64,000 nt of DNA from Sulfurifustis variabilis. GTDB lineage: Bacteria; Pseudomonadota; Gammaproteobacteria; Acidiferrobacterales; Sulfurifustaceae. Of the stretch, positions 30,013 through 60,681 are shown one piece after another (position 1 is the first letter of the stretch; each line of letters begins with the position of its first letter). The notes under the pieces were generated by a model. It made no database searches. It was not told the origin of the DNA and saw nothing but the letters and a program-made list of their open reading frames with translations. The DNA is taken from NCBI RefSeq assembly GCF_002355415.1, contig NZ_AP014936.1, positions 1,736,001 to 1,800,000 of the forward strand. Direction: 5' to 3'. Made by a program: the position numbers and the translations under genes.

Positions 30013-30089
30013 ATCAACACAGACGAGCGGGTGACACCCGGCGTGGCGGCAAACACGACCGGGAACCGTGAGCCGGAACTGTCGCCGCG

Positions 30090-30350
30090 CTAGTTCTTCT
30101 TGTCCTTCTTCTTCGGCGCGCCCGTCATCGGGTCGATGTTGACCTTCCCGACCTTCCCGTCCTTCGTCACGAAGCGGATCTTGTACACGCCATCGTCGTA
30201 CTTCGCCTCGGTGACGTAGGCGACGTTCTTCTCGTTCTCGACTTTCGCGACCATCTTGGAAAGCGGCCGCGCGCCTTCCGGAGGCCGGTCGTCCGCGGCC
30301 GGAACGGCAACGGCGGTCAGGAACAAGCCTGCAAAGAGAAGTGACCTCAT
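30090..30350 (-). CDS. Small exported PepSY-like protein
   Basis: An 86-aa protein with a clear signal peptide (RSLLFAGLFLTAVAVPAA) and a mature part of about 65 residues. The pattern KVENEKNVAYVTEAKYDDG followed by YKIRFVTKDGKVGKVNID resembles a single PepSY unit, found in inhibitors and periplasmic modules. A Lys-rich tail follows. GGGAGACGACC precedes ATG 30350. It is convergent with the debranching gene. Upstream bases 30351-30558 contain several GC-rich dyads but nothing I can name. Confidence 0.65.
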   Translation of the reverse strand: MRSLLFAGLFLTAVAVPAADDRPPEGARPLSKMVAKVENEKNVAYVTEAKYDDGVYKIRFVTKDGKVGKVNIDPMTGAPKKKDKKN

Positions 30351-30558
30351 GGTCGTCTCCCGTGACCTGAATCGGGAAAAGCTTGGGCGCCAGGGGCTCG
30401 CGGGACAACTGGGGAAGTGTCGGGGCAGAGGAAAGGAGTTTTCGCTCCCTTACCGGTAGTTCCCCTTATGCGGCCAACCGGATGCCCGGGAGCGCGAAAG
30501 CCGGGTGGCCGACGGACGCGCCCCTGGGACTGAGACAGCGAGGACTTGCGCGGAATCG

Positions 30559-31476: not shown

Positions 31477-31623
31477 GGTTCTTATTAAATATCATCGTTA
31501 CCTGCATTGTGTCGCTTCAATGCTCCGGCCACGAAAACCGAGAGCGTCCTGCCGCGCGCTTATCCGCCCAAATACGGTACCTCGGACTCACAAATCGCAT
31601 CGTATCTGCTGCAAACAAAAACC

Positions 31624-31656
31624 TTGACGAAAATCGGGTGACTTCATAGAGTCACC
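31624..31656 (+). promoter_or_regulatory. Promoter with an overlapping palindromic operator for the NHL gene
   Basis: TTGACG (31624-31629) and TAGAGT (31647-31652) are spaced by 17 bases and point toward the NHL gene, giving a leader of about 90 bases. A perfect inverted repeat, GGTGACT-N6-AGTCACC (31637-31656), covers the -10 box, as a repressor site would. No regulator gene is adjacent. Confidence 0.5.
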
Positions 31657-31745
31657 GCCGCGGCCAAAGGAACAAGGCCGACCAACAACCAAGAACTCGC
31701 GGGCGCTTCCGTTGCGCCTCGAGACCAGCAAGGGAGGCAGCGGAT

Positions 31746-34700: not shown

Positions 34701-35213
34701 CGGTTCTCGATCAGCGGTGACAGCGGCATACAACGAATCGAAGCCGACTTCGATGGGGACGGGAAGACTGATTTTGCCACCACCAACCCGAATGTCGGTA
34801 TCGCGTCGCTCTATGAAGAACCGGGCGTATATCAAGCGACCTTTACCGTCACGGACTCCACCGGGAACAAGCACGTGCGGACCGTACCCGTTCTGATCAA
34901 GGACATTGAAGAACAGGATGAACTGCTGCGTTCCATCTACGCGAGCATGCTCAACCGCCTGGGGGTCCGTGATATCGACGGTGCGCTCAAAACGATTTCC
35001 GGTGCTGCTCGGGAGAAATACCGCGCTGTTTTCGACGTGCTCGCACCCGACCTTCCGACGATCGTCGATCAGCTCGGCACACTCAAGGAAGGCGCGATCG
35101 GGGAGGAAATCGCCGAATACGTCCTGGTTCGCGACGTAAACGGCAAATCCGTTGCCTTCCTAATATATTTCCTGAGAGGCGAAGATGGTGTTTGGCGCAT
35201 CGAGGGGATGTAA
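31746..35213 (+). CDS. Large exported NHL-repeat and Ig-like protein
   Basis: A 1155-aa secreted protein. After an N-terminal signal (VVLALLVLFATVPASGAEA) comes a propeller-like region (about 48-345, repeats such as GGFLWVADHH and SLWIGGKRM). One or two Ig-like domains follow (about 365-620, with TIPPKFLSVLPPDGSTL). A five- or six-repeat NHL propeller (about 635-990) has units such as TIAGNRTYDYSGDGGLATEA. A PKD-like segment and a 95-residue C-terminal domain end the protein. TTG 31746 has the strong AAGGGAGG site eight bases upstream; ATG 31761 lacks one. A cell-surface or periplasmic scaffold or ligand-binding role is likely, no enzyme motif being visible. Local GC is near 52-57 percent. 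Confidence 0.8.
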   Translation: MENRSMRREGSPGKPCPRTVRTHTRSPIPLVVLALLVLFATVPASGAEAGGFLWVADHHALVRIDTESNQAEPLGSLSHKPEALAIAGNSTWVLLKKELIRYDNTGKAVEEIDLSVLGVEAGEGGRLAIDPYDDSVWVAAGKLLSHVVGGKRGLQWQAPERILDIALDPDESLWVLTQKQLLLIDGNGVVRESVDLHPAIKDPAFLAVDGLGGIVWIAGHKHLYALDTNKLDIGPQPVPVSGHEQFEGDVRSIAVHPVFGTLWLLTKGRLWLYDRAGAPIRMVDLTPSGIDEARVIVFEPISLSLWIGGKRMLGRFTGNGEFVALVGVEKKIEALGVPPFTLAPTLRLVRPENGTTTADPRPTLELEIGAACNDVPCLPVDAYLSSLAMEAWLNGIDISDRFVLSGAMARYTPDERLPEGENDLTARVNDVFGHSSQWTSTLFTIDTIPPKFLSVLPPDGSTLTNAQAVISGQVDDQTANVLLLASDGGLLSMGGANFVFAVTVQPGENRFTLTAQDPAGNSTSQLLRLTYRTSTVAVTNVKNGDRIEGGSVFLIGTFQGPPNTGVIVDGKVAYTQGNQFFVEVDLSPGENQIAITASTEDGLLGQETITLYRDAAVYDVERAPSQAPAIHTVAGNGIAGFGADGQPATQSSLFYPSAIAIGASGELYIADYTRVRRVTTDGVITTYAGVRTPPSGSEPEPGRNLCTEGNGGLATEVEFAFITDLAMDPARTTLYVVDYTAGCVRRVDPDGRIYTVAGGGQSTDAGDGGPATEATLVFPLSVAVGPDGSLYIAEDDYPRIRRVTPDGTITTIAGNRTYDYSGDGGLATEASFTSIWDLAFDSKGSLYIADSNNRRIRRIDLDGIVTTFAGSGSPGYSGDGGPAVEAQFDFPSGLAFGPDGALYVADTDNSVIRRIAPDETITTIAGTGEYGYDGDGGPPRLARFAFPMGLAIDAGGSALVADSDNQRIRSFPVISENSEFAPVRVRFSISGDSGIQRIEADFDGDGKTDFATTNPNVGIASLYEEPGVYQATFTVTDSTGNKHVRTVPVLIKDIEEQDELLRSIYASMLNRLGVRDIDGALKTISGAAREKYRAVFDVLAPDLPTIVDQLGTLKEGAIGEEIAEYVLVRDVNGKSVAFLIYFLRGEDGVWRIEGM

Positions 35214-35364
35214 GGGCTCGCCTGTGCGAAGCTCGCGCATGGGCTGCTACGTGGTCAGCGCGTACTCGATTTTTATTACGCCGGGTTCGACGTATCCGAG
35301 GACAGTGTTCGGCATTCTTGACCGGGGATCACACTCTCGCTAAGGAGTACATCGAGGCGCGCGT

Positions 35365-35508
35365 ATGAAGAAAACAATCGACTCGAAGCGGCCGGCTGAC
35401 TGGCAGAACGAAAGGCAGACTGCCAGCGACAGCCTGCGGGTCATCTTGATCGAGCGCAGCGACGACGAGAAAGTGTCGCGGGCACGCGACGTCAGGAGTG
35501 CCTTATGA
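35365..35508 (+). CDS. Possible 47-aa ORF coupled to the lipoprotein gene
   Basis: ATG 35365 opens a 47-codon frame (MKKTIDSKRPADWQNERQ at the start), charged and without membrane segments. Its stop TGA overlaps the ATG of the next gene (ATGA), a classic coupling arrangement. The ribosome-binding site is poor (AAGGAG lies about 20 bases away). It could be a small gene or only a leader whose translation opens the lipoprotein start. The 151 bases before it (35214-35364) hold nothing I can support. Confidence 0.35.
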   Translation: MKKTIDSKRPADWQNERQTASDSLRVILIERSDDEKVSRARDVRSAL

Positions 35509-36167
35509 ATCGATGCACCATCATCATGGCCGTATTATTCCTCGCCGGGGTCTTGCCGCTGAACGGCTGTGCGACCTCCAGCGCGCCTCCCCGAGAACCG
35601 GTGGAAGGCAGAGTCCTGGAGCAGGGAACGAACAGACCCATCCCCGGCGCCATCGTCATCGCCCGCTGGCGCGGTCACATGCCGGTCTTCCCCGCCGACG
35701 GCCAAAGCGTTTGTTATCACGTCGAGAGCGCCACCACCGACGAGGAGGGCCGTTACCGCTTCCCCGTGTTCGACGAAGAGCCCCGGCATCGGCGGATTCG
35801 GTACAAGTACATCCAAGTCGACGCATATCAACCGGGTTACGAGTGGTCTGGTGCTTCAGAGGGAGGGAAGGTCCAGTATCTGGCACCTTTCATCGGGGGC
35901 AGGGAGGAGAGGTTGAAGTACCTTGCACGACTTTCTGGAGTGGTTGGCTGCTACGGTGCTGACAATGAAAAGCCGCTCGTGCCTGTCTACAAGACGCTCT
36001 ATGAGGAGGCACGTAGTATCGCAACAATGGATAAAGACAAGGAGTTGCTTCAATTCATACGCCGTCGTGCACTCTATGCTTGGTCACGCCCTCCGCGTGA
36101 ACTGACAGCGCGAGAGATCGAACAGGCTATTAAGAATGACCCGTATTTTCGGGAGCACTTCCCATGA
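35505..36167 (+). CDS. Lipoprotein with a carboxypeptidase-regulatory-like domain
   Basis: A 220-aa protein with a lipoprotein signal peptide ending in the lipobox LNGC (Cys22), so it should be anchored by lipidation. The domain after the linker begins VEGRVLEQGTNRPIPGAIVI and continues TTDEEGRYRFPVF, the pattern of CarboxypepD_reg-like beta-sandwiches. The C-terminal 90 residues (YKTLYEEARSIATMDKDKEL, PRELTAREIEQAIKND) are helical and unrecognised. It overlaps the next gene by four bases (ATGA) and probably forms a unit with the large zinc-enzyme-like protein. Confidence 0.72.
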   Translation: MNRCTIIMAVLFLAGVLPLNGCATSSAPPREPVEGRVLEQGTNRPIPGAIVIARWRGHMPVFPADGQSVCYHVESATTDEEGRYRFPVFDEEPRHRRIRYKYIQVDAYQPGYEWSGASEGGKVQYLAPFIGGREERLKYLARLSGVVGCYGADNEKPLVPVYKTLYEEARSIATMDKDKELLQFIRRRALYAWSRPPRELTAREIEQAIKNDPYFREHFP

Positions 36168-39100
36168 GGGGTGTTCGTATCCTCGTTGGTTCACTTGGTT
36201 TAAGCCTCGCTGTTTCAGCTCATGCCTACGAACTCGCTACTCATGGACGTCTTACATACCACGCTTACTTGCAGTCTGTACTTGCCCAAGATGGTTCGAT
36301 TCTGCAAGACCTCGGCTTGAAAGTAGAAAACCCACTAACGGACGAACCGTTTGAAACGGCATATTACGATTTTGCAGGGTTCGAAGTCAGAATTCGATAC
36401 GCGGACCCATTTGAGTCTTCCGATGGCAAAATGCCCAATGAGGTCAAGTCGCTCTCCCTTCCCGGCTGGCTCCTCCGCGGTGCCATTCGCGAAGACGATG
36501 TCTTGAATCCCACCAACGGCCAGCCGCTCGATGATCCTTACAACACGGGCAGCAAGCTTGCCGACAATCGAGTGCTTAATCATTTTTACGATCCGGCGCA
36601 CGACTGGCCGCTGAACGTGGGAGCCGTGCTCGGCAAGAAGGCCCCCGATTGGGCCGTCGGAGCGAAAGATATCTTCAGCCAACCTCACACCCCCGAACCT
36701 GGCCGGCGCAACCACTTCACGGTCTTTGATGCGCGGGAAGCAATGTATCGCGCGCTGACCGGTAGGGATAGAGAAGGCCAGGCGATCGCGAAGACCCAGG
36801 AAGAACGCAACAAGTACTGGGCCACAACATTCCGGGCGCTCGGTGACATCGTGCACCTGATCCAGGACATGGCCCAACCGCAACACACCCGAAACGACCC
36901 CCATGCCGGCATCGGCGGTCCCATCGGGGAAGCGGTGAGCGGCCACAAGAGCGTCTTCGAGGCATACATTGAAACGCGCGCCCTTGCCGCGATCTACGGA
37001 ACGCCGAAAGGACAGAGCTTCACTGCCACGCCCCTCGACTACATTGGTACGGGGCTTGATGCGCCCGACGGCTACCCCGTTCCACGCTTCACCGACTATA
37101 TCTCCTTCTTCACCACGCGCCACAAAGACAGCGACATCCACAAACGACAGGGCCTTGCCGACTACAGCAATCGCGGCTTCTTCTCGGCCGGAAGGAATCT
37201 TGATGCCTCCGACAGCGCCCTGTACGACTACCCCTCGAACAACCACCCTTCCTACCCACGCCGAACATTGACGGTGAATTGGGAGGGCAGGCCCCTCGAC
37301 GACGAATCCAACGCGAAAGTGGAACTCCTCCTGGGCAGCGTCGCCGATTCGTTTTATTCCGGCGGAAGCCGCAGCTGTGTGTCTGCGAGCGATCCAGGCT
37401 GCATTGCACTAACTACGTACGGAGTCTGGGATCAGTTTCTGGAAGAAAAGACCTGGCCCTCGCGCTATACCCTCAACCGCTACAACTACGACGACCAGGC
37501 GAGCCTCCTTATCCCCCGGGCGGTGGCGTACAGCGCCGGTCTGATCGATTACTTTTTTCGCGGGCGACTTGAGCCGGAAGATGTCAGCTTCACGAGTGAC
37601 GGCCTGCGGCTACGAATTAGAAATACCATTGACCTGGATCGTTACCCGGAGTGGGAGAACGAAGTGCTGCGTGCGCGGGACAGCCAGGACCGACCGGGTG
37701 TACTCGTACTTGTGTACGAGTACACGGATACGACCGGAACACGGCGTTTCGGAGAGCCGGCTCAGGTTGACATGGTGGCGGGGGACGATGTCCGGCCCGA
37801 TCGCGTTTCGCGCGCGAGTTACTTGTTCCCGATCGCGATTCCCGCAGACGCGCGTGAAGTGAAATACCGGATCGTATTCCGTGGCCGTTTAGGCAGTGAA
37901 GACGACGCGATTGCCGTTGGGACAATGCAGCCGGTGACGGGCTTCCTCGTAACACCGAATTATCTTCCGACCGACGAAGTGCCGGGAAGGCGGATGGTGC
38001 AGCGATTGGGTGACGCATGGCGTGTGAGCGAGGAGATCGGGTTAGAGGCAGGCACCGTGGACTGGAAGGGATGGTACGTCGACGGGAAGCCCACCAAAGT
38101 GCTTTCGTGGGTCGGTCCAAGCAGCCGCTATTTCCCGGATGTCGACGACTTCTGGAGCAAAACCTACTCGTCGGAATTCTCGCCTCAGATATTCCGGGCT
38201 GGAAGGATTCATGCCGTGGCCCCCAAGGCGGTATTGGGCGCGGCGGTGTATTCCGATGCCGAGGGCAAGGATTGGATCGTCGCGGTCACTCAAGATGGTC
38301 ATGCGGACGTCGTATACCGTCGGCCGAACCGGAGTAGCAATTCCGACGCGCTCCAATCAGAAGACGTGCCTGCGGGGTGGGAGGAAATCGGGCGGCTGGA
38401 CAACAATGCCGAGGGGACGCGCATTACGCTTCCGGCCGATGTCCCCTGGTTTTTCAATGGCCCCGGAACCGAGGCGCAGACGATGCGGAAGTGGTGGGAC
38501 ACGTCCGACCCGATGTCGATACACCTGAAGCGTCTGAAACTCGTGATACAAGATGGCCGTGCCGTTTTCGAAGATCTCGGAAACCTGCCGGGCTTCAGCG
38601 GCCAAACGCAGTGCACTCAGAGCTACGATGAGTTCGGGGCCGGGTCGGCACGCCAGATCGCTCACTCCGCCGGGCAATATATTCTTGCTGTCGATTACAA
38701 AGACGAACGGGAGGTCTTTGCCATTCTGCGGCTCGACAGCGAAAGCGAGACTGAAACCCAGGTGACCGTCATCCACGATCATGAGCCCGACCGGCACGGT
38801 AGCGACCAGGAGTCGGGCGGAACGACTCGCCTCTCAAACCATCGCGAGACCCTGGTTCTGGATGGCGGTCAAGAGATTCCGGTGCTGACAACCGGGGGGC
38901 ACCTTGTCACTACCTGGAGTCCAGACACCTTCAGCGCAATCAGTAGCGCTACATACGACCACAAGGAGATAACCTATTACCTTGACTTGCGTTACGACAC
39001 GTACGCCTACACCTACTGGGGAGTGGACACCACTACGGAGCGGAACAGCGCGGGAGGGATGGTCACCGAAGTACACAAGGACGGCATTCAGATCCTGTCG

Positions 39101-39427
39101 TCTGCAGAACCGATAATCGATGTGCTGGGCCCACGTTCGAATCTTGCGACGTATCCGGCGGGCCCGAATGACCTCTGGAAGTTGCACTGCTCCGCATCGG
39201 TTACCGATTATGCCGGCGTCGGTGAACTGAATTTCGGCTGGCGTGTGAACGCTCTCGGTTCGTGGGCCGTGGATGCCGAGGGAAATCTGGCCGTCTCGCA
39301 GCGGTTCTACGATGGCAACTATTACTTGCTTGCGCCGCACAACCTGATCACTGGCGGTCGCCTCGAGTCGTTGTTGCCTGATGCACCTGCGGGGGCGAGC
39401 TTCAAGCCCGTAGGCGTTCTTCATTAG
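36164..39427 (+). CDS. Large exported zinc-dependent phospholipase C / P1 nuclease-like protein
   Basis: An 1087-aa protein with signal peptide (cleavage expected after AHA near residue 22). The mature N-terminus has ATHGRLTYHAY. H140 in LNHFYDP and the block GDIVHLIQDMAQPQH (H231, D235, H241) reproduce the H-x3-D-x5-H zinc spacing of Bacillus phospholipase C and P1 nuclease. A later HKSVFEAY may supply the remaining His/Glu pair. The catalytic-like part spans roughly residues 23-460. The remaining 600 residues are beta-rich and unrecognised. Known single-domain enzymes are far shorter, so the C-terminal part is a large extension. Lipid or nucleotide hydrolysis is inferred. Confidence 0.7.
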   Translation: MRGVRILVGSLGLSLAVSAHAYELATHGRLTYHAYLQSVLAQDGSILQDLGLKVENPLTDEPFETAYYDFAGFEVRIRYADPFESSDGKMPNEVKSLSLPGWLLRGAIREDDVLNPTNGQPLDDPYNTGSKLADNRVLNHFYDPAHDWPLNVGAVLGKKAPDWAVGAKDIFSQPHTPEPGRRNHFTVFDAREAMYRALTGRDREGQAIAKTQEERNKYWATTFRALGDIVHLIQDMAQPQHTRNDPHAGIGGPIGEAVSGHKSVFEAYIETRALAAIYGTPKGQSFTATPLDYIGTGLDAPDGYPVPRFTDYISFFTTRHKDSDIHKRQGLADYSNRGFFSAGRNLDASDSALYDYPSNNHPSYPRRTLTVNWEGRPLDDESNAKVELLLGSVADSFYSGGSRSCVSASDPGCIALTTYGVWDQFLEEKTWPSRYTLNRYNYDDQASLLIPRAVAYSAGLIDYFFRGRLEPEDVSFTSDGLRLRIRNTIDLDRYPEWENEVLRARDSQDRPGVLVLVYEYTDTTGTRRFGEPAQVDMVAGDDVRPDRVSRASYLFPIAIPADAREVKYRIVFRGRLGSEDDAIAVGTMQPVTGFLVTPNYLPTDEVPGRRMVQRLGDAWRVSEEIGLEAGTVDWKGWYVDGKPTKVLSWVGPSSRYFPDVDDFWSKTYSSEFSPQIFRAGRIHAVAPKAVLGAAVYSDAEGKDWIVAVTQDGHADVVYRRPNRSSNSDALQSEDVPAGWEEIGRLDNNAEGTRITLPADVPWFFNGPGTEAQTMRKWWDTSDPMSIHLKRLKLVIQDGRAVFEDLGNLPGFSGQTQCTQSYDEFGAGSARQIAHSAGQYILAVDYKDEREVFAILRLDSESETETQVTVIHDHEPDRHGSDQESGGTTRLSNHRETLVLDGGQEIPVLTTGGHLVTTWSPDTFSAISSATYDHKEITYYLDLRYDTYAYTYWGVDTTTERNSAGGMVTEVHKDGIQILSSAEPIIDVLGPRSNLATYPAGPNDLWKLHCSASVTDYAGVGELNFGWRVNALGSWAVDAEGNLAVSQRFYDGNYYLLAPHNLITGGRLESLLPDAPAGASFKPVGVLH

Positions 39428-39560
39428 ACCGCTATGTGCGATAGTCCCCGCCTGAGAGAGCACGAAGACTTCCCGACAAACGGTAAGCCGCAGCTACGTT
39501 TCCTCGCTCGGGCGCAACACGTTGGTTTCGCTTCAGGTTGGTCGGTAGTTGTCGACAAAG

Positions 39561-39588
39561 TTGACACTACTCGTCCCGTGGATACTGT
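39561..39588 (+). promoter_or_regulatory. Candidate sigma-70 promoter before a small peptide gene
   Basis: A perfect TTGACA (39561-39566) is followed after 16 bases by TACTGT (39583-39588), a moderate -10. It lies 80 bases upstream of the small exported-peptide ORF and on the same strand. Confidence 0.35.
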
Positions 39589-39668
39589 GCCGTTCGGAGG
39601 AAACGGATTGACGGGGGAGCCGGGGGAGGAAGATATTCGGGTTCGGGGAACATAAAAACGAACTCACG

Positions 39669-39779
39669 ATGCGCGCATTTCTTTTTGCCACGATCCTCCT
39701 GCTGTCTTTCGGCTCGTTTGCGGCGGAACCCATCAAGATCGACCAACCGCAGCCGCAGACCGATCAGGACTGCAAGTAG
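39669..39779 (+). CDS. Possible 36-aa exported peptide
   Basis: ATG 39669 opens a short frame whose first 18 residues (MRAFLFATILLLSFGSFA) form a near-ideal signal peptide with cleavage expected at SFA-AE. The mature product would be about 18 residues, acidic and Gln/Pro-containing, ending in a single Cys. No good ribosome-binding site is seen. It could be a genuine small secreted peptide or the remnant of a longer exported protein. Confidence 0.4.
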   Translation: MRAFLFATILLLSFGSFAAEPIKIDQPQPQTDQDCK

Positions 39780-40053
39780 TCCCGAAAGGCAGAACTCCAC
39801 TGGCCGTCATGTGACTCCGCTGGGTCGCTGACCGCCCATTTCAAGACGCCAGCCCTCACTCGGGCTCGAATTAAAGCAGCGACTGCTTCACCGACCGCCT
39901 CCCCGCGTTTGCCTGGACATCAACCCGTAAACGCGTGGCCGGCCGCGGACAGGTGATGACCCTCCGACAGCAATTCGGCGCGGAAAAAACCGTGGAGTAG
40001 TCGCGGTTGGATAGCGGTTGGGGTTGCCTCCGGGGGCCGTTATTCTGAGCGCG

Positions 40054-53280: not shown

Positions 53281-53302
53281 TCGCCCGCAAACGGAGTTGC
53301 GC

Positions 53303-54463
53303 ATGTTCACCCGACGTTTCACCCTGTTCCGGCTGTTCGGCTTCGAGGTCCGCCTCGATCTGACGTGGCTCCTGCTCGCGGTCCTCGTGACGTGGTCGCT
53401 CGCGAGCGGACTCTTCCCGACCCTGACCCCGGGGCTCGACAGCCGCACGTACTTCTGGATGGGCGTGGTCGGCACGCTCGGCCTGCTGTTCTCGATCGTG
53501 TTCCACGAGCTGTCGCACGCCCTGGTCGCGCGGCGGTACGGGCTGCCGATCGGCGGCATCACGCTCTTCATCTTCGGGGGCGTCGCGGAGATGACGCGGG
53601 AACCGGAGAACGCCAAGACCGAGTTCCTCATGGCCGTCGCCGGCCCCATCTCGAGCCTGGTCCTGGCGCTCCTGTTCTACGAGCTGTACGTGTACACGGC
53701 ATCCGACGTCGCGACCCCGCTCAACGGCGTCGCCTACTACCTCGGTCTGCTCAACGTGATCCTCGCCGTCTTCAACCTCGTCCCGGCGTTTCCGCTCGAC
53801 GGCGGCCGCATGCTCCGGGCCGCCCTCTGGGGCTGGAAGGGCGACTACCGCTGGGCGACGCGCTTCGCCGCGCGCCTGGGTTCGGGCTTCGGCCTCCTGC
53901 TGATCATGCTCGGCGTGTTCGCGTTCCTGACCGGCAACGTCATCACCGGGATGTGGTGGTTCCTGATCGGGCTTTTCCTGCGCGGGGCCGCCGGGATGTC
54001 CTACCAGCAGCTCGTGATCCGCGAAACCATGCACGGCGAGAAAGTGGCGCGCTTCATGAACCCCCACCCGGTCACCGTCTCGTCGAACGTGCGCATCCAG
54101 GACCTGGTGGACGACTACATCTACCGCCACCATTTCAAGATGTACCCCGTCGTCGACAACGAGCGCCTGCTCGGCTGCGTCTCGACCGACGAGGTCAAGA
54201 AACTCGCCCGCGAGGACTGGCACCGGCGCACGGTCGCCGACGTCATGGACCGCTGCTCGTCCGACAACACCGTGACCCCGAATGCCGACGCGATGGAGGC
54301 CTGGATGCAGATGAGCCGCACCGGCGCGAGCCGCCTCCTCGTCGAGGACCGCGGCCGCCTCGCCGGCATCCTCTCCCTGCGCGACCTCATGCGCTTCATG
54401 TCCCTCAAGTTCGACCTGGACCAGTCGCCGAAGGGCATGCCGGGGAGGGCGGGACGAGGCTAG
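53303..54463 (+). CDS. Site-2 protease family (M50) metalloprotease with CBS domains
   Basis: A 386-aa inner-membrane zinc protease. It has about five helices, the FHELSHALVARRYG motif (His68, Glu69, His72) and NLVPAFPLDGGRM (Asp166), which together bind zinc within the membrane. Two CBS domains (about 250-375, RFMNPHPVTVSS and VADVMDRCSS) form a C-terminal regulatory module that may sense nucleotides. GGAG six bases before ATG 53303 is the ribosome-binding site; an in-frame TTG two codons upstream is less likely. Substrates are unknown. Confidence 0.9.
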   Translation: MFTRRFTLFRLFGFEVRLDLTWLLLAVLVTWSLASGLFPTLTPGLDSRTYFWMGVVGTLGLLFSIVFHELSHALVARRYGLPIGGITLFIFGGVAEMTREPENAKTEFLMAVAGPISSLVLALLFYELYVYTASDVATPLNGVAYYLGLLNVILAVFNLVPAFPLDGGRMLRAALWGWKGDYRWATRFAARLGSGFGLLLIMLGVFAFLTGNVITGMWWFLIGLFLRGAAGMSYQQLVIRETMHGEKVARFMNPHPVTVSSNVRIQDLVDDYIYRHHFKMYPVVDNERLLGCVSTDEVKKLAREDWHRRTVADVMDRCSSDNTVTPNADAMEAWMQMSRTGASRLLVEDRGRLAGILSLRDLMRFMSLKFDLDQSPKGMPGRAGRG

Positions 54464-54527
54464 TTCGTTCCGTTCCGCGCCGTTCTTCCCGCTCTATCCG
54501 CCCGCCAGCCAGCCAACACCAACCGGC

Positions 54528-54548
54528 CCCGGATAACCGTTATCCGGG
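54528..54548. repeat. Palindrome CCCGGATAAC-C-GTTATCCGGG
   Basis: A perfect 10-bp inverted repeat around a single C, containing CCGGATA-N5-TATCCGG. The same arms recur at 54663-54681, 134 bases downstream. There is no T-run. It lies between the M50 gene and the cassette array. Confidence 0.75.
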
Positions 54549-54632
54549 CAAACCGCCGCTCGGGCCATACACGGTGGAAGCGCCGTATATACTTCTCAGA
54601 AGACCAATAATCAGTTTCGCAAAGGATTGCCG

Positions 54633-54707
54633 ATGACAGCATTCCCACCCTTTCGCCTCTGTCCGGATATCAGGTATCCGGTACATGGGTCGTGTATTCA
54701 TCGTTAG
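54633..54707 (+). CDS. Possible 24-aa leader ORF ending in the first core site
   Basis: ATG 54633, preceded by AAAGGATTGCCG, opens a 24-codon frame whose TAG lies inside GTTAGGC (54703-54709). The first cassette gene starts 12 bases later and has no ribosome-binding site of its own. In class 1 integrons a short ORF over attI1 (ORF-11) lets ribosomes reach such cassettes. The same logic may apply here; this is an inference from arrangement only. Confidence 0.4.
   Translation: MTAFPPFRLCPDIRYPVHGSCIHR
54663..54681. repeat. Palindrome CCGGATA-N5-TATCCGG (second copy)
   Basis: Arms CCGGATA and TATCCGG are identical to the inner arms at 54529-54547, with a different 5-nt centre (TCAGG versus ACCGT). 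It is located 22 bases before the first integron-like core GTTAGGC at 54703 and inside the 24-codon ORF. Confidence 0.75.
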
Positions 54708-54718
54708 GCAAATACAGC

Positions 54719-55156
54719 ATGACCCTCGCTCGGTTCATTCTTTCGTCTGCCCTTGTGTCTGGTTCGTTTATCGTCCTGGCGGTTCCATTGCTGTTCTCCT
54801 CTCTGGGAACCACCGAAAATATATTCCAAAAATACCCGCTATTGTTTCTCTTCCCGCTGCCGTACTTTCTTGGGGCCTCGCTCAACAAAGAAGCGTATTG
54901 GGCGCGATCTCTGTCGCTGTCCGAACTTCTAAATTCCCGGGAGAGCAAAAAGCAAAAGGGCGAGTATGGTTGGGCAGTACGAATGTTGACCGCTGTTGTA
55001 CTAGGTCTCGCTGTATCTCTCCCGCCGCCCCCAAAGGATACGTTTCTGCTGTTGTTAGGAGTTTCATGGGGAGCCGTTGTCACACGCGCGTGGTTTATTT
55101 ATCAGGAATGCCTAACCCGCAACTCAACCGGACGCACCTTACGGCGCGCCGGTTAG
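54719..55156 (+). CDS. Cassette 1: hypothetical membrane protein, 145 aa
   Basis: About four hydrophobic helices (LSSALVSGSFIVLAVPLLF, YPLLFLFPLPYFLGASL, MLTAVVLGLAVSL, FLLLLGVSWGAVV). No family recognised. ATG 54719 follows the core GTTAGGC by nine bases and lacks a ribosome-binding site. A GTG frame at 54692 spans the core and is less likely. The stop TAG falls within the attC-like palindrome, so the last residues (RTLRRAG) derive from it, a typical cassette feature. Low GC distinguishes it from neighbours. Confidence 0.6.
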   Translation: MTLARFILSSALVSGSFIVLAVPLLFSSLGTTENIFQKYPLLFLFPLPYFLGASLNKEAYWARSLSLSELLNSRESKKQKGEYGWAVRMLTAVVLGLAVSLPPPPKDTFLLLLGVSWGAVVTRAWFIYQECLTRNSTGRTLRRAG

Positions 55157-55169
55157 CGGCACGTTAGCT
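55110..55169 (+). repeat. attC-like site 1
   Basis: Sixty bases from R'' GCCTAAC to the R' core GTTAGCT. Inner arms AACCGG and CCGGTT pair, with ACTC offset between 5' and 3' halves as in attC L boxes. The R' core deviates from GTTRRRY at one base. Confidence 0.65.
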
Positions 55170-55174
55170 GACAA

Positions 55175-55573
55175 ATGACGAAGTTTGAAAACGCACGCTG
55201 TAGCGTCTGGCCATGTGGCGTTAGTTCAGTCGGCGCGCTTATAGTCGTGTCCCTCGGCCTCTATGGACAAAATGCCTGGTTCTACCCAAGCGATCAGTTA
55301 ATATTCTTTGGGTCGTGGCTCGCGGTGGCCCTGGGTCTCGTTAGCACCTATCTGTTATACCTTTACGGAGACTTCTCGGATGAAAGGCTACAAAGACAAA
55401 GAATGCGAAAGTCATTTATCTTGCTAGGCGCGGCGGTTTTGCTTCCGCTAATGCTGTGGTTCGCGTTCTGTCTAGGTGCTCCTGCCATTGTCGCTAGCGC
55501 GCTTGGTCCGAATGACAGGATCGTAACAACCGTCTCAGAAAAGACGCAGAGAGGAGCGTTAAAGAGAAACTGA
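55175..55573 (+). CDS. Cassette 2: hypothetical membrane protein, 132 aa, probably truncated
   Basis: Three hydrophobic helices (GALIVVSLGLYGQNAW region, FFGSWLAVALGLVSTYLLYL, FILLGAAVLLPLMLWFAF). ATG 55175 lies five bases after the previous core and no ribosome-binding site is visible. The TGA at 55571-55573 ends the frame, yet the same frame continues open for 67 further codons to a TAA inside the next attC-like site. The annotated protein may therefore be a truncated form of a gene of about 200 codons. No family recognised. Confidence 0.55.
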   Translation: MTKFENARCSVWPCGVSSVGALIVVSLGLYGQNAWFYPSDQLIFFGSWLAVALGLVSTYLLYLYGDFSDERLQRQRMRKSFILLGAAVLLPLMLWFAFCLGAPAIVASALGPNDRIVTTVSEKTQRGALKRN

Positions 55574-55777
55574 GTCAGTCTGACAGACTACTCTGTCCTT
55601 TTTAAGAACCCGCTATGGGTTCCGGACGAGATCTTCAATCAACTGCAGGAGGGGCGGGAGGTTTCTATAATCATTCGCCAGGACGTTCTCGGGACCCGTA
55701 TTTTTCACATTGAGCCCAGGAACCACGCTAACACGTCGTTCAACTGGGTGCGCGCAACGACGGCGCGCGCCGGTTAA
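55574..55777 (+). pseudogene. In-frame continuation of cassette 2 after a TGA stop
   Basis: The frame of the 55175 gene continues after the TGA (55571-55573) for 67 codons, with protein-like content such as LWVPDEIFNQLQEGREVSII and IFHIEPRN. It ends at TAA 55775-55777 within the attC-like site, the same place where cassette 1 ends (both finish in an A-G-stop sequence). No standard start codon occurs in this part before a late GTG. It is best read as the 3' part of a gene broken by a nonsense mutation, or a sequencing error. Confidence 0.5.
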
Positions 55778-55790
55778 CTCTGCGTTGTCT
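55726..55790 (+). repeat. attC-like site 2
   Basis: CGCTAAC marks R''. GTT-C-AAC-TGG pairs with CCGGTTAAC, leaving an extrahelical C in the 5' arm, as attC sites show. R' is GTTGTCT, different from the canonical core. The 3' half (GCGCGCGCCGGTTAACTCTG) nearly matches attC-like site 6. Confidence 0.6.
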
Positions 55791-56051
55791 ATGAAGGCAT
55801 GGATGAAGTTGGAAGTGCCTCCTGCGCGTGGTGTGTTCTTTGGGCTTGCAGTTTTTGTTGGGTCATTGTTTCTTGCTGGGTACGGAAAAATCCTAATAAC
55901 TGGTTCTAATTTCATGGTTGGGTCCGCTGTTTGGGTGCTCGGCCAAGTGGGCGTTGTGGCAGGACTCGGGCTTGTTGGGCTTTCCATAGTCACGGTACAT
56001 CGACGAAACAGATATAAGAAGCGCGGTTCAATTCGAAATGGACCACCCTGA
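55791..56051 (+). CDS. Cassette 3: hypothetical membrane protein, 86 aa
   Basis: Two hydrophobic helices (RGVFFGLAVFVGSLFLAG and MVGSAVWVLGQVGVVAGLGL) separated by a short loop, then a basic tail (VHRRNRYKKRGSIRNG). ATG 55791 begins immediately after the core GTTGTCT. No ribosome-binding site is seen. The stop TGA sits in the R'' box of the next palindrome. Low GC. No family recognised. Confidence 0.55.
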   Translation: MKAWMKLEVPPARGVFFGLAVFVGSLFLAGYGKILITGSNFMVGSAVWVLGQVGVVAGLGLVGLSIVTVHRRNRYKKRGSIRNGPP

Positions 56052-56134
56052 CTTCGTGTTGGAGTCGACATGGTGAGACATCACACCGTTACGTGTCGGC
56101 TCGGTGCCCCGCGCGGCTCAACGCGGCGTTAGGT
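56046..56134 (+). repeat. attC-like site 3, long loop
   Basis: R'' CCCTGAC pairs with R' GTTAGGT, a canonical GTTRRRY core. L'' GTGTTGGAGTCG pairs with CGGCTCAACGC apart from wobble pairs and one extrahelical G. The central part between arms is about 40 bases, longer than in sites 1 and 2. Confidence 0.65.
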
Positions 56135-56233
56135 CTCCGGAAAAAACCACTTTGAGTCGGACGCCTGCCTTTCCGCTGTGCCTCAGGGCATCCCGTCGCT
56201 CGGGTGGGCCGTCATGCATAACAAGGACTCGAC

Positions 56234-56875
56234 ATGAGATATCTCGCCGCCCTGGCCGTTTGCCTTTCGCCTCTTCTCGCTGAAGCCGGCTCATACATCG
56301 TCATCGCGAGTGGCGATACCGTTCCGGTACCCGCCGTTCTGGACGTACCAGCCGAGTACGTCGGCGTGTCCGTGTACATCCGAAGCGCAGCAAAGGACGC
56401 GGCAAAGCGCATCGATGAGGTAAATGAAACTCGCGTGCGCCTTAATAGGGCCGTTTCTGCAAACCCGAACTTGCAGATTCAGTGGGCCAGAAGCTCGTAC
56501 TCGGCCGCGGAAGGTAGCTACAAGTTCAGTTCCTACAGCGGAGCGGACTCTCAATCGCAGATGTTCGTCCTCGGCAAGCTCGGTTCGGCCGGCATCGATG
56601 CTGTTACGAAGCAAATCATCAGCGCTATCAAGACGGTCGAGGCTGTTGGTGATGCCAGCATCACGACCGGTGATACCCGTCTGGGAGTCACAGATCCGGA
56701 ACGCTTTCGCAAGAAGCTCCTTGGGCTGATCAAGGACAACGCAGGCGAGGCGAGAACGGCACTTGGCGGGTCCTCACTGGAGATTTCGGGAGTCGGATCC
56801 CCGGTCCAGGTCGTCCAGAAGAACGACAAAGAGGTGAGCCTTTTCATCAACTACCGGGTCACGGTGAAGAAGTGA
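56234..56875 (+). CDS. Cassette 4: exported protein, possibly SIMPL/DUF541-like
   Basis: A 213-aa protein with a short signal peptide (RYLAALAVCLSPLLAEA). It has an Ala/Lys-rich helix, SVYIRSAAKDAAKRIDEVNE, and a region with QTSS-like ARSSYSAAEGSYKFSSYSG. The pattern of short strands around helices resembles SIMPL (DUF541) domains, but I am not certain. ATG 56234 has AAGGACTCGAC upstream, so unlike cassettes 1-3 it carries its own ribosome-binding site. The 99 bases before it hold no other feature. Confidence 0.6.
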   Translation: MRYLAALAVCLSPLLAEAGSYIVIASGDTVPVPAVLDVPAEYVGVSVYIRSAAKDAAKRIDEVNETRVRLNRAVSANPNLQIQWARSSYSAAEGSYKFSSYSGADSQSQMFVLGKLGSAGIDAVTKQIISAIKTVEAVGDASITTGDTRLGVTDPERFRKKLLGLIKDNAGEARTALGGSSLEISGVGSPVQVVQKNDKEVSLFINYRVTVKK

Positions 56876-56876
56876 T

Positions 56877-56944
56877 GCGCTACCAGACGCTCACCGGGCG
56901 ACGCGACTCGCTTCGCCTGGCGCCAATGAGTGCGGGCGTCAGGC
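56877..56944 (+). repeat. attC-like site 4
   Basis: Outer boxes GCGCTAC and GTCAGGC are one or two bases from consensus. The 5' half (GCGCTACCAGACGCTC) and 3' half (GAGTGCGGGCGTCAGG) align with site 5, supporting common ancestry. The middle has CCGGGCGA facing TCGCCTGG. Confidence 0.5.
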
Positions 56945-56959
56945 GTCATTGAGGAAATA

Positions 56960-57409
56960 ATGAGAATCGTCCAGGCGGCGCTTGTCGCATATCTTACCCT
57001 TGTCACATCGGTCAACTCTGCCGCAGCGGATTACCTCGACTATTTCAAGAAGGCGAACATTGAAGTGACCAAAATCGTCGGCCAAACGAGTTCGCACATT
57101 GGAAACGGATTTGAGATTAAAGCGGCATACGGGTACACGCCCGAGACGGCACTCCGGGGCCACTTCGTCGGAGTCTTTCTCATCGAGGATGGAGCGTTTG
57201 TCGAGGTCATCGATGTGTTGCCGTCCGAGCGCGGCTTGGACTTCTTTCCGCGCATACAAGAAGCAAGCAAGTCGCGCGTAGTAGTAAGCTTTTTAAGCGA
57301 CTATGGCGAGTTAAGGAAGCGCCAGTACGTCCTCGACTTGACGAAGGAAAAGAAACTGGTCGAGGTCATTGAACTCGAACCGGCCGGGATTCCCGGTAAC
57401 CTGCAATGA
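56960..57409 (+). CDS. Cassette 5: exported hypothetical protein, 149 aa
   Basis: A signal peptide (MRIVQAALVAYLTLVTSVNS, cleavage near AAA) is followed by about 125 soluble residues with FEIKAAYGYTPETALRGHFV and VVVSFLSDYGELRKRQYVL. No family recognised. GAGGAAATA precedes ATG 56960, a good ribosome-binding site. It ends 16 bases before the next palindrome. Periplasmic or extracellular location is expected. Confidence 0.6.
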   Translation: MRIVQAALVAYLTLVTSVNSAAADYLDYFKKANIEVTKIVGQTSSHIGNGFEIKAAYGYTPETALRGHFVGVFLIEDGAFVEVIDVLPSERGLDFFPRIQEASKSRVVVSFLSDYGELRKRQYVLDLTKEKKLVEVIELEPAGIPGNLQ

Positions 57410-57425
57410 GGAGCGGCAAAACAGT

Positions 57426-57494
57426 GCCCAACCAGGCGCTCCAGCCGGTTCTCACCCTGTAGGCGCGGCCCGCGGATTAGCGCGGGCGTTATGA
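57426..57494 (+). repeat. attC-like site 5
   Basis: The 5' end GCCCAACCAGGCGCTCCAGC is the sequence seen, with small changes, at the start of many published proteobacterial attC sites. The R'' box is perfect RYYYAAC. The R' core GTTATGA is imperfect. Inner GC-rich arms (GCGCGGCCCGCGG) face one another. Confidence 0.7.
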
Positions 57495-57509
57495 CGCGGG
57501 AGAGCACTC

Positions 57510-58040
57510 ATGATCGACTACAACAGCATCGTCAGGCTCGTGTTAAAGCTCTCGGGTGTGGGGCTCGTGGTATATGGCGGCGTATCCCTCTCCTCATACC
57601 TCCCCGCGCTCATCCACACGGACAGTTGGAGCGAGTGGCCCGCCTTGATAATTTTTGCGAATCTCGCTGCGCTGGCGATGCCGTTTCTGTTCGGCATGTT
57701 CCTGTGGCTCTTTCCTGCCCCCGTCGCCAATACGATCGTTCGGGGAGCCGCGGCAGGCAGCCAATCGGAAACCCTCCTGAGCCACGAACTTGAACGAATC
57801 GGGATAGCCCTCTTGGGGCTCTATCTGTTCTATCGCGCGGTCTCTGATCTCATCTATCAATTGATGATCCACCGCGCGAAAGTGGCGGCTCTCGGGAACG
57901 TCAGGGCACCGGACGATTTTCCCGCGCTGATGACCGCAACAGTTATCGAGTTGGTTTTGGCGCTCATTTTCCTTCTCCAGGCGAAAGGACTCGTGAATCT
58001 GTTCAGGAAGGTTCGTGGCTACCCGGGAAGCGCCTTATAA
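57510..58040 (+). CDS. Cassette 6: hypothetical membrane protein, 176 aa
   Basis: Four hydrophobic helices (LKLSGVGLVVYGGVSL, WPALIIFANLAALAMPFLFG, IGIALLGLYLFYRAVSDL, TATVIELVLALIFLLQAKGL) with a short cytoplasmic C-terminus. The frame ends at TAA just inside the next palindrome. GCGGGAGAGC precedes ATG 57510 by a few bases. Unrecognised family, typical of small membrane proteins in cassette arrays. Confidence 0.6.
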   Translation: MIDYNSIVRLVLKLSGVGLVVYGGVSLSSYLPALIHTDSWSEWPALIIFANLAALAMPFLFGMFLWLFPAPVANTIVRGAAAGSQSETLLSHELERIGIALLGLYLFYRAVSDLIYQLMIHRAKVAALGNVRAPDDFPALMTATVIELVLALIFLLQAKGLVNLFRKVRGYPGSAL

Positions 58041-58101
58041 CACTTCGTCCACCGAACGCGGGCACACGACGATGCGCGCGCCGGCTAACTCTGCGTTAGG
58101 C
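58033..58101 (+). repeat. attC-like site 6
   Basis: A canonical R' core GTTAGGC closes the site. The 3' half (GCGCGCGCCGGCTAACTCTG) differs from site 2 at one base. The R'' region CTTATAAC is imperfect and overlaps the stop of cassette 6. Confidence 0.65.
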
Positions 58102-58103
58102 GA

Positions 58104-58421
58104 ATGAAACGAAGACTGTCATGGGTGCTTGGGGGCCTGGCATACATCGCCCCGCCAACCTGGGCCTACTTCGAACAGGCATCGCTGTATGGAGAGTTAG
58201 CCGAGCGGCATGGTTACGTTTGCGGTCTGCCGATGCTTGCCATTGCCATCCTTGCCGGATCCGGTGCTTGCGTGCTGTCTGGCTTGGCTTCGTGGTGTGG
58301 TTACATGTCGTTCCAGGCACTACCACGACCCCGCCCCCGCATTCGTTCCATTGAGCTTGCGGTCTTGGCAACTCCATGTCTCGTTTCGGCCAGCTATGTC
58401 ACATCGCTATTCATCGCGTAA
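58104..58421 (+). CDS. Cassette 7: hypothetical membrane protein, 105 aa
   Basis: Three likely hydrophobic helices (VLGGLAYIAPPTWAYF, LPMLAIAILAGSGACVLSGL, IELAVLATPCLVSASYVTSL). Four Cys are present, two of them in the hydrophobic regions. ATG 58104 lies two bases after the core GTTAGGC. No ribosome-binding site is seen. No family recognised. Confidence 0.55.
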   Translation: MKRRLSWVLGGLAYIAPPTWAYFEQASLYGELAERHGYVCGLPMLAIAILAGSGACVLSGLASWCGYMSFQALPRPRPRIRSIELAVLATPCLVSASYVTSLFIA

Positions 58422-58532
58422 GGACCCGGTTTCGTCAAAAAAGGCGCTCTACCGATTTTCTCGAGGCGCCGCGGTGAAGGCCCCGGGCTTCGCGGCGCCG
58501 ATCGTTGCCTGGCGCGGCTTAAGACGTTGTCA
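58422..58532 (+). repeat. Candidate degenerate attC-like region 7
   Basis: The 3' end GCGGCTTAAGACGTTGTCA resembles an L'/R' attC end with the GTTGTC core also seen in site 2. No convincing matching R'' could be found on the 5' side. The centre carries a strong hairpin with arms GGCGCCGCG (58465-58473) and CGCGGCGCC (58491-58499). Confidence 0.35.
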
Positions 58533-58556
58533 GCTAAAACAAACAGGAGATTCAAC

Positions 58557-58919
58557 ATGCCAGTTGTCACCCTTCGAGGTCTCATTTCTGCTGTCGCGCT
58601 CTTGGGTTTGCTGTCTTTCATGCCCGCATACGCCGCGGAAGTGAGCTGGCTCGTAGGCAAGTGGGAAATGACACAGGATCCTGACGGAAACGATAAAGAT
58701 TGGATGGAATTCACGCCGGAGGGTCAGGCAACCAGCATCGCACCGAGCGGCAGACGCGTACCGGGCCGGTATGAGGTTACGGATAATGAAGTGAGGATCG
58801 TCTATACCGTAAATGGAAGGACTATTCCTATTACTCTTAAGTACAGCGCCGACAGGAAGAGACTTCTTGCCTACTCCAAAAGAACGGGAAACACCTCCGT
58901 TTACGAGAAGGTCAGATAG
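58557..58919 (+). CDS. Cassette 8: exported lipocalin-like small protein, 120 aa
   Basis: A signal peptide (LRGLISAVALLGLLSFMPAYA) precedes a 93-residue beta-rich domain: VSWLVGKWEMTQDPDG, DWMEFTPEGQATSI, PGRYEVTDNEVRIVY and SVYEKV. The W-x2-G-KWE start and strand pattern resemble small lipocalin-like or calycin domains. CAGGAG nine bases before ATG 58557 is a good ribosome-binding site. Its own GC is lower than flanks. Function unknown. Confidence 0.6.
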   Translation: MPVVTLRGLISAVALLGLLSFMPAYAAEVSWLVGKWEMTQDPDGNDKDWMEFTPEGQATSIAPSGRRVPGRYEVTDNEVRIVYTVNGRTIPITLKYSADRKRLLAYSKRTGNTSVYEKVR

Positions 58920-58931
58920 AAGACGCAAGAT

Positions 58932-58992
58932 ACCCAACAACCGATGCGAGACAGGCGCGAAAAGCCGGCGCGCCGCTCAACGGGAGTTTGTC
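58932..58992 (+). repeat. attC-like site 8
   Basis: R'' ACCCAAC matches RYYYAAC. The 3' side has CGCGCCGCTCAACGGGAG and a degenerate core GTTTGTC. Arms CAGGCGCG and CGCGCCGC face each other across GAAAAGC. No accepted ORF starts immediately downstream, so this may mark the array end. Confidence 0.5.
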
Positions 58993-59128
58993 CACATTTC
59001 ATGATCTCCCAAGAACCCGGCCCGGGCCGCCAGGTCCATGGCGGTATCGCCGGTCGCAGAGGGGCGCTGGCATGGCGCCAGCCACGCGAAAGTCACGGCA
59101 GCTTAACGAGTGATCAGGGAGAAAGCAC

Positions 59129-59503
59129 GTGCAGTGTTACCAACATAACGAGAATGTCTCCGTCGGTTTGTGTAAGGCCTGCCAGAAGGCAGTCTGTTCC
59201 GTTTGCGCCACGGACACCGGCCGGGGTCTGGCGTGTTCGGAGCCCTGTTCAAGGGAGGTCGGCGTTCTGAACGAGATCATCGACAGAAGCAAACAGATCT
59301 ATGGCATCGGCAGCCGGTCGAAGCTTCCCCCGACCGGAATTCTGTTCTATCTCTTTTTTGCGCTCGTGTCCCTCGGAGTCGGTCTTTACCCCCTGACTTA
59401 CGGAAAACCGGTGGAGTGGTTCCTGGTCCTGATGGGCTCCGGCTTTCTTGTATTCGGCACCATGTCCTATGTCAGGACGAGAAAGCTTCGTCTCAACTGC
59501 TAG
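59129..59503 (+). CDS. B-box-type zinc-finger membrane protein, 124 aa
   Basis: The N-terminal 45 residues hold CYQHNENVSVGLCKACQKAV and further Cys (CSVCATDTG, GLACSEPC), the Cys/His pattern of bacterial B-box-like zinc fingers. Two membrane helices follow (GILFYLFFALVSLGVGLYPL and FLVLMGSGFLVFGTMSYV). GTG 59129 is preceded by AGGGAGAAAGCAC. Similar proteins are common on proteobacterial chromosomes, with unknown function. No attC-like site follows, so it may belong to the host chromosome rather than to the array. Confidence 0.7.
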   Translation: MQCYQHNENVSVGLCKACQKAVCSVCATDTGRGLACSEPCSREVGVLNEIIDRSKQIYGIGSRSKLPPTGILFYLFFALVSLGVGLYPLTYGKPVEWFLVLMGSGFLVFGTMSYVRTRKLRLNC

Positions 59504-59565
59504 GTGAACCATGACCTTCCTTTGCAGCAGGACGCGTGAAGCGGCGCGCGGCCGAAGGTGATCGA

Positions 59566-59881
59566 ATGAAACACGAATCTCGAGATTTGCCCGAAATGCC
59601 AGGAAGCGGGTGTCTCGCCGTGGGCCCCGCTTTTCGCAAGCTGGCCGTTTCATGCGCGATGCAGGAACTGCGGGACGAAGCTTCGAGTGAGGGTTCCGCA
59701 CTGGCAAAACGCCCTGGCGCAGATTCTCGCCCAGGTCGCTTTCTGGGCGTTGCTGCTCTTTGGCCTGGTTAATGGTGGAGTTGCGGGACTGCTGTTTGGC
59801 GGCCTCACGGGAACAGCGGTGGGCCTGCTTATCGCATTGATTCCGGGTTTCTTCTCGAAGCTGGAGCCATTGCCTGAGTAG
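59566..59881 (+). pseudogene. Zinc-ribbon membrane protein with an apparent one-base frameshift
   Basis: A start ATG (59566) preceded by GAAGGTGATCG leads into the wrong frame. One base later, at about 59584, the alternative frame reads ICPKCQEAGVSPWAPLF, then RCRNCGTKLRV, two CxxC pairs of a zinc ribbon. A membrane region (AFWALLLFGLVNGGVAGLLF) follows, to TAG 59879-59881. Deleting a single G would join ATG and ribbon as MKHESRICPKCQ. It could be a frameshifted gene, a sequencing error, or initiation at ATT 59585. The GTG-initiated frame at 59687 would keep only the membrane half. Confidence 0.5.
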
Positions 59882-59894
59882 ATCCTCAAAGTCG

Positions 59895-60200
59895 ATGAAC
59901 CTTACAGAAGCCACCGGATTGATTCTCGCCGTGGCGGGAGCGGCCCTGGTTCCGCTCGGATGGATCGTCAGCGCCAAGATCGTCGTCGTGGGGTTCGTTC
60001 TTCTCGGCGTCGGCGTCGGGCTTTTTTATACCGAGCGAAGATTGAGGCGGGAAGAGAAGATCGACAAGGAAAGCACCGGGGGCGGAGGGACGGGTTCCGG
60101 GGTTCCGGCGGACTTCCACAACTACACGGGTTGGCGCTCCGGCGGGAGGCGACGGGACATGGAGTCGACGTTCGAATCGGGGGACGCCGACGGAGACTGA
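59895..60200 (+). CDS. Hypothetical membrane protein, 101 aa
   Basis: Two hydrophobic helices (GLILAVAGAALVPLGWIVSA and IVVVGFVLLGVGVGLFY) and a charged tail with GGGGTGSGVPADFHNYTG and RSGGRRRDM. GC-rich codon use matches the chromosome and not the cassettes. No clear ribosome-binding site precedes ATG 59895. Family not recognised; the DFHNYTGWRSGG block looks conserved-type. Confidence 0.6.
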   Translation: MNLTEATGLILAVAGAALVPLGWIVSAKIVVVGFVLLGVGVGLFYTERRLRREEKIDKESTGGGGTGSGVPADFHNYTGWRSGGRRRDMESTFESGDADGD

Positions 60201-60288
60201 ACGAACGGCGCAGCGGGAGGTTTGACTGCACGCGTCGCCCGCGCCAACATCGCTGCACAGAACTCTCCCGATCCTCCGGAAGCCAGCC

Positions 60289-60681
60289 ATGAGCGAAAAG
60301 CCCGCAAAGCAGTATCTTGTCATTTCCCGCGGACAATGGAACAAGGAGGCCTCGCGGGAGGAAATACAGGGCGCGATCGACAAGTTCTACGTCTGGCTCG
60401 ACCGGCTCGTGGCCGAAGGAAAGATGCAGACCGGGCAGCGGCTCGCCGGCGAGGGGAAGACGGTCTCGAAGAGCAGGGTGACGGACGGCCCTTACAGCGA
60501 AGCCAAGGAAGTGATCGGCGGCTTCTGGTTCATCCTCGCCGACAGCCTCGAGGAAGCGGCGGAGATCGCGCGGGGAAATCCGTGCCTTGATTACGGCCTG
60601 TTTTACGAGATCCGGCCGATCGAGTCGGTCCGCGCGAGCGCTTATGCGGTGACCTGCGAGACCCCGCGAGACCGCAAATAG
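60289..60681 (+). CDS. YCII-family (DGPF-like) protein
   Basis: A 130-aa single-domain protein of the YCII/dimeric alpha-beta barrel class. The pattern includes QYLVISRGQWNKE, an early helix, KTVSKSRVTDGPYSEAKEVI and GGFWFILADSLEEAAEIA, where DGPYSEAKE is the family centre. YCII proteins range from sigma-factor partners to hydrolases; no ECF sigma factor is adjacent here. It is convergent with the alpha-amylase gene. Confidence 0.82.
   Translation: MSEKPAKQYLVISRGQWNKEASREEIQGAIDKFYVWLDRLVAEGKMQTGQRLAGEGKTVSKSRVTDGPYSEAKEVIGGFWFILADSLEEAAEIARGNPCLDYGLFYEIRPIESVRASAYAVTCETPRDRK

Follow-up and report, generated by a model that had tools for sequence, protein, structure and literature searches.

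The locus and its attI-like leader

The chromosome of Sulfurifustis variabilis skN76T, a single contig of 3,958,814 bases, carries an integron-like cassette array within the stretch analysed here (bases 1736001-1800000, 64 kb in all and called the window below; positions are those of the window unless the genome is named). Eight open reading frames (ORFs) of 86-213 amino acids (c1-c8) lie on the plus strand between proposed attC sites (w1-w8, Table 1), and the guanine-plus-cytosine (GC) content of the array is 0.555 (54704-59010) vs. 0.681 for the remaining window. The original prediction, made from the sequence alone, had described eight same-strand, lower-GC ORFs alternating with palindromes, and these features are found at the locus: the four cores that it placed at 54703, 55163, 56128, and 58095 are all present, the stops of three of the eight ORFs (c1, c3, c6) fall inside the palindromes, and the likeness that it noted between the 3' ends of sites 2 and 6 amounts to 23 identical positions when the terminal 28 bases of w2 are compared with those of w6.

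Table 1. Features of the cassette array and its upstream flank (window positions; R2 and R3 are the covariance models described in the text, and R'' fit is the match between the R'' of an attC site and the core that starts the cassette).
Feature	Position	Strand	Remarks
Upstream membrane-protease-like gene	53297-54463		stop 64 bases before start of leader homology (54528)
attI-like leader	54528-54709	+	ends in core GTTAGGC (54703-54709); homology to IntI A leader
Cassette 1 ORF (c1)	54719-55156	+	145 aa; likely membrane protein by inspection; without Pfam/NCBIfam match
attC w1	55110-55169	+	R2 E 2.4e-7; R3 34.3 bits; bottom-strand fold z -3.63; R'' fit to own cassette's core 7/7
Cassette 2 ORF (c2)	55175-55573	+	132 aa
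attC w2	55726-55790	+	R2 E 7.3e-9; same type present in other genomes
Cassette 3 ORF (c3)	55791-56051	+	86 aa
attC w3	56046-56134	+	R2 E 6.8e-10; R3 51.2 bits; 76-91% identical stretches in other genomes
Cassette 4 ORF (c4)	56234-56875	+	213 aa; signal-like N-terminal stretch by inspection
Candidate decayed attC w4	56878-56944	+	core GTCAGGC by inspection; missed by R2 and R3
Cassette 5 ORF (c5)	56960-57409	+	149 aa
Weak attC w5	57426-57494	+	R3 11.0 bits, E 0.23 over 6 kb
Cassette 6 ORF (c6)	57510-58040	+	176 aa; likely membrane protein by inspection
attC w6	58035-58101	+	R2 E 0.0037; R3 18.0 bits, E 0.025
Cassette 7 ORF (c7)	58104-58421	+	105 aa
Candidate decayed attC w7	58447-58532	+	core GTTGTCA by inspection; missed by R2 and R3
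Cassette 8 ORF (c8)	58557-58919	+	120 aa; sub-threshold TIGR03066, 22.7 bits vs. cut-off 93.25
Weak attC w8, last recognisable site	58932-58992	+	R3 5.9 bits, E 6 over 6 kb

The first core, at 54703, had been taken for part of an attC site, but the DNA that precedes it points elsewhere. When the genome was searched with 54500-54720 (221 bases), the sole non-self match was 760299-760482 (genome positions), which is the DNA separating an intact integron integrase gene, IntI A, from its first cassette, about 1 Mb from the array. Over 179 bases (54528-54706) the two leaders are 70% identical (E 4.8e-16), their global alignment extends through the core GTT, and each contains two GGATA..TATCC palindromes. 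Because the 54703 leader is homologous to that of IntI A, the site is attI-like and not attC. From this likeness we infer that the leader is a putative attI whose neighbouring integrase gene (intI) is gone. The window leader was not found in the 40 relatives searched. With the IntI A leader as query, and scoring limited to two candidates in each genome, none was found in the other 368 genomes of the class sample. No counterpart of the LexA-like box CTGT(N8)ACAG that lies upstream of IntI A was found in 54400-54720.

attC sites within and beyond the array

The attC sites were searched with covariance models built from sites outside the window. The model R2 combines four aligned attC sites from the arrays of IntI A and of a second integrase gene, IntI B, with a hand-written structure and contains no window sequence; the four were kept from nine sites picked by eye, having been chosen for arms that aligned easily. 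An earlier model (R1), an RNAalifold consensus of nine poorly aligned sites, contained only five pairs and was used in no search. R3 was built from 16 off-window sites of the same genome, which are R2 matches at E<=5e-5 from seven loci. Calibration of R2 and R3 was short, so that their E-values are rough. Run unfiltered over both strands of the full 64 kb, R2 placed its four top matches, w3, w2, w1, and w6, all within the array; its fifth is w1 on the opposite strand, and the best match outside the array reached 14.6 bits (E 0.13). R3 also puts w3, w2, w1, and w6 first. A lack of covariance-model hits at the listed sites would have refuted the original prediction by its own terms; hits stand out at four of the eight sites. 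R3 further recovers w5 and w8 at coordinates that had been fixed earlier by eye, with scores no higher than elsewhere in the window, and two of the eight candidates, w4 and w7, match neither model and are left unrecovered.

Pairing was compared with shuffles in the training alignment and in the window sites. In the training alignment, 87.5% of structure cells pair and covariation is 0.442, compared with 0.166 in shuffles. In the window, w1, w2, w3, and w6 show pairing in 81.7% of cells vs. 75.2% for shuffles, of which 13 in 500 reach the observed value; sliding the partners lowers it to 28.2-37.8%. Covariation is 0.375 vs. 0.254 (reached by 3 in 500 shuffles). As each alignment had been fitted to the structure, these counts are biased towards it.

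A second type of evidence comes from other genomes. Stretch 54704-59010 served as DNA query against 369 genomes of the class, its own included; scoring was limited to two candidates in each, so that weaker matches may be missing. Fifteen of the 18 non-self matches scored fall on w1-w3, including one that belongs to the IntI B array of the same genome, three fall at about 58466-58492, and none lies on a cassette ORF outside the proposed sites. Other genomes account for 17 of these places, and 13 of the 17 were fetched as loci for a check with R3. All ten w1-w3 loci among them (of 14) bear an attC site on the matched stretch, and six of the ten have at least two attC matches within about 3 kb. 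Since the matches fall on w1-w3, the array shares attC sites, and not genes, with other genomes (among the matches scored). The original prediction had also named a single fixed block of ORFs and spacers in related genomes as a finding that would speak against it; the DNA search gave no such intact block in any of the other 368 genomes, though the genus is otherwise unsampled among the relatives.

The three matches at 58466-58492 were dropped as support for w7, which contains this stretch. They are 26-27 bases long and 96% identical to genes of three genomes that appear GroEL-like by inspection, have a GroEL-like translation, and show no attC at E<=0.05. The groEL-like stretch is either a chance likeness or a captured fragment.

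Integrases, other arrays and cassette contents

Two integron integrase genes score above the TIGR02249 cut-off in the genome, IntI A (760660-761604) and IntI B (2985776-2986633). None of 14 control genomes has a gene above this cut-off, and among the relatives 12 of 41 genomes do, the own genome included. In the window there is no listed TIGR02249 place, and the best tblastn match of IntI A has an E-value of 0.46, so the array is indeed without a visible integrase, as first described, in a genome that is not integrase-free. IntI B is frameshifted near the position of residue 46 of IntI A, with two tblastn pieces in different frames. Upstream of IntI A lies the box CTGTATAAATATACAG (locus L017 10561-10576), which we take to be LexA-like from its motif and which would suggest control of IntI A by the SOS response. 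In the IntI A array, a transposase-like insertion, presumably IS3-like as judged by inspection, seems to break a cassette (locus L017, about 8000-9180).

Matches to attC occur in at least eight places of the genome: at about 118 kb (one site), 757-760 kb (IntI A), 787, 986-990, 1216-1220, 1261-1265, 1791-1794 (the window array), and 2982-2985 kb (IntI B). At least five of these places besides the window array (118, 787, 986-990, 1216-1220, and 1261-1265 kb) have no adjoining intI. These counts are lower bounds, as the two genome-wide searches scored 150 of 3386 and 150 of 6052 candidates, and w1 itself is absent from both results. One relative (G004) has a single intI above the cut-off beside locus L088 and attC arrays in two places about 1.5 Mb apart (L079 and L088); it too seems to carry an integron together with a cluster of attC sites lacking an integrase (CALIN).

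When a cassette is inserted by an integrase, the R'' of its attC site complements the core with which that cassette starts. This relation was tested with all sites at hand, found by eye or by model and including distal degenerate ones. In the IntI A array, 31 of 35 bases fit (permutation p 0.017), and in the IntI B array 42 of 49 (p 0.0001), where the five proximal cassettes reach 35/35 and the two distal ones 7/14. The combination of perfect proximal boundaries and a frameshift suggests that IntI B was either lost recently or is affected by a sequencing error. The integrase-less cluster near 986-990 kb gives 44/49 (p 0.0043), and three small clusters give 10/14, 12/14, and 3/7, none of them significant. 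For cassettes 1-8 of the window array the fit, out of seven, is 7, 6, 2, 4, 5, 6, 4, and 4.

What do the cassettes encode? None of ten ORFs tested, eight of them from the array, has a Pfam match above cut-off, which agrees with the earlier view that the contents are undescribed (0/8 cassette ORFs). The lack of a Pfam match is usual for cassette genes. The frame of c2 stays open and protein-like for 67 codons past its TGA (55571-55573), and the next stop is at 55775, inside w2; 55175-55777 holds either a gene broken by a nonsense codon or two ORFs. A search of the 369 genomes with the protein of c4 returned distant homologues in two others, 29% and 23% identical. The former, from another genus, sits shortly after an attC match (E 2.1e-5), a position that is as expected for a cassette gene, and the latter has no adjoining attC match at E<=1. 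The protein of c6 had no match among plasmids.

On the left, the array is preceded by the membrane-protease-like gene, whose product we take to be an M50 protease from its motifs rather than from a family search. On the right, three small ORFs with a GC content of about 0.60 follow the last attC site (59129-60200). They were considered as extra cassettes and dropped, having no plus-strand attC match at E<=10, and the lack of such a site among them leaves the right end of the array uncertain. A sigma-70 scan of 54400-60400 found no promoter-like sites. Elsewhere in the window, a lower-GC island (30000-40000, GC 0.56-0.63) contains long ORFs, one of which (1155 amino acids) has NHL, Ig-like, PKD, and FG-GAP domains. 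The word integron does not occur in the genome paper (PMC5024460); in the literature searched, a river-sediment survey is the one paper that mentions it along with Sulfurifustis.

Origin of the array

The array is read as the remnant of an integron on the basis of the off-window model matches at four sites, with their covarying pairs, and of the 15 of 18 non-self matches that fall on w1-w3 (among the matches scored). This reading also draws on the leader homology that includes the core, the complete fit of the R'' of cassette 1, the lower GC content, the absence of an intI remnant from the window, and the lack of a counterpart to the LexA-like box in 54400-54720. We therefore consider it probable that the locus is a genuine integron array, with some eight cassettes behind an attI-like site of its own, from which the adjoining integrase gene has been lost. 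It is most likely a decayed integron, and a CALIN by the definition of IntegronFinder, with attC sites scored here by R2 and R3. The original prediction had already called it a CALIN; this stands insofar as an attC array lacks an adjoining intI, and has to be made more specific in that the array is headed by an attI-like site.

The array could have arisen as follows. An integron integrase would have inserted cassettes successively, each time recombining the attC site of a circular cassette, folded as a single strand, with the attI-like core (54703). Loss of intI and its promoter would then have left leader homology that starts at 54528. The attC sites would have decayed unevenly thereafter: w1, w2, and w3 remain good, w6 is fair, and the others are poor. 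We infer that intI was deleted in place and that the leader may work as attI, perhaps still open to IntI A in trans. A bolder version, in which the leader and cassettes form a second usable landing platform served by IntI A from about 1 Mb away, so that one integrase with an upstream LexA-like box feeds two arrays, is offered only tentatively and is rather doubtful.

Several observations weigh against the reading as a decayed integron. Only four of the eight attC candidates stand out in the model searches, and w6 does so at an E-value of only 0.0037 (R2) or 0.025 (R3). Taken together, the R'' boxes of the window array fit their own cores at 38 of 56 bases, which is not significant (permutation p 0.10); by this measure erosion has gone furthest in the window array among the four longer arrays. 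Single-stranded folding clearly beats shuffles in one of the eight bottom strands (w1, z -3.63) and not in the other seven; two attC sites from the IntI A and IntI B arrays, for comparison, reach z -4.08 and -3.73. Furthermore, no relative with intI at the locus was found. When neighbouring window ORFs were compared by tblastn with the loci of the three closest orthologues of the gene at 53297-54463, this gene alone gave a match. Synteny around the gene (G012, G025, G030) was set aside, the gene being the only one of the tested window ORFs that these loci have in common with the window, and the G012 contig ending just upstream of it.

Alternatively, the leader and first cassettes might have come from the IntI A integron by duplication or relocation, in which case no integrase gene ever belonged to this locus. 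In line with this, the genome search gave the leader in these two places only. However, the leaders diverge by 30%, and tblastn of c1-c8 against the surroundings of IntI A (741000-780000) gave no common cassettes at E<=1e-3, so that the event would have to be old. Loss of intI is the simpler account, and we regard this origin as unlikely. Lower still is the probability that the CALIN was seeded away from any integron, by insertion at an attG site or from a relocated piece of an array, with the likeness of the leader being secondary. Such seeding would suit the at least five other attC places without an adjoining intI, and attG insertion has been described (PMC12444791), but attG would need just a short core, the homology seen here covers 179 bases of leader and runs into the core, and the genome has no leader match besides that of IntI A; we regard it as very improbable. 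That the locus is no integron at all and consists of small chromosomal genes with unrelated hairpins between them is scarcely credible. The weakness of half the sites and the mostly unremarkable folding would suit this view, but model E-values go down to 6.8e-10 and the cross-genome matches fall on the sites.

Read as an integron that lost its integrase, the array can be set beside known systems. It resembles the CALIN class of IntegronFinder in having several attC sites and cassettes with no adjoining intI, and differs in the recognisable attI-like leader at its head; IntegronFinder detects attI only for class 1. Another parallel is the Shewanella prophage M16-3, in which a complete integron and a CALIN share one replicon and attI heads both arrays (PMC9892861). 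There, however, both carry the same attI type and the CALIN lies between phage genes, whereas here the leaders are 70% identical, about 1 Mb apart, and chromosomal. In Xanthomonas, intI was inactivated or lost and cassette arrays were left behind, but the ilvD locus is common across that genus and the loss can be traced (PMC12444791), in contrast to Sulfurifustis, a genus otherwise unsampled among the relatives.

CALINs have already been proposed to be degraded integrons (PMC9024848), and their mobilisation in trans has already been called possible (PMC12444791). An attI-headed CALIN beside a complete integron has also been reported (PMC9892861), and the array described here is a further case of this known remnant type. 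It provides a concrete case of how a CALIN can originate: with what looks like an integron's head still in place, an integron stripped of its integrase is a better reading than a set of stray cassettes. Together with the IntI A leader it forms a natural pair of diverged attI-like sites in a genome with one intact integrase, a testbed in which the drift of attI could be set against its use in trans.

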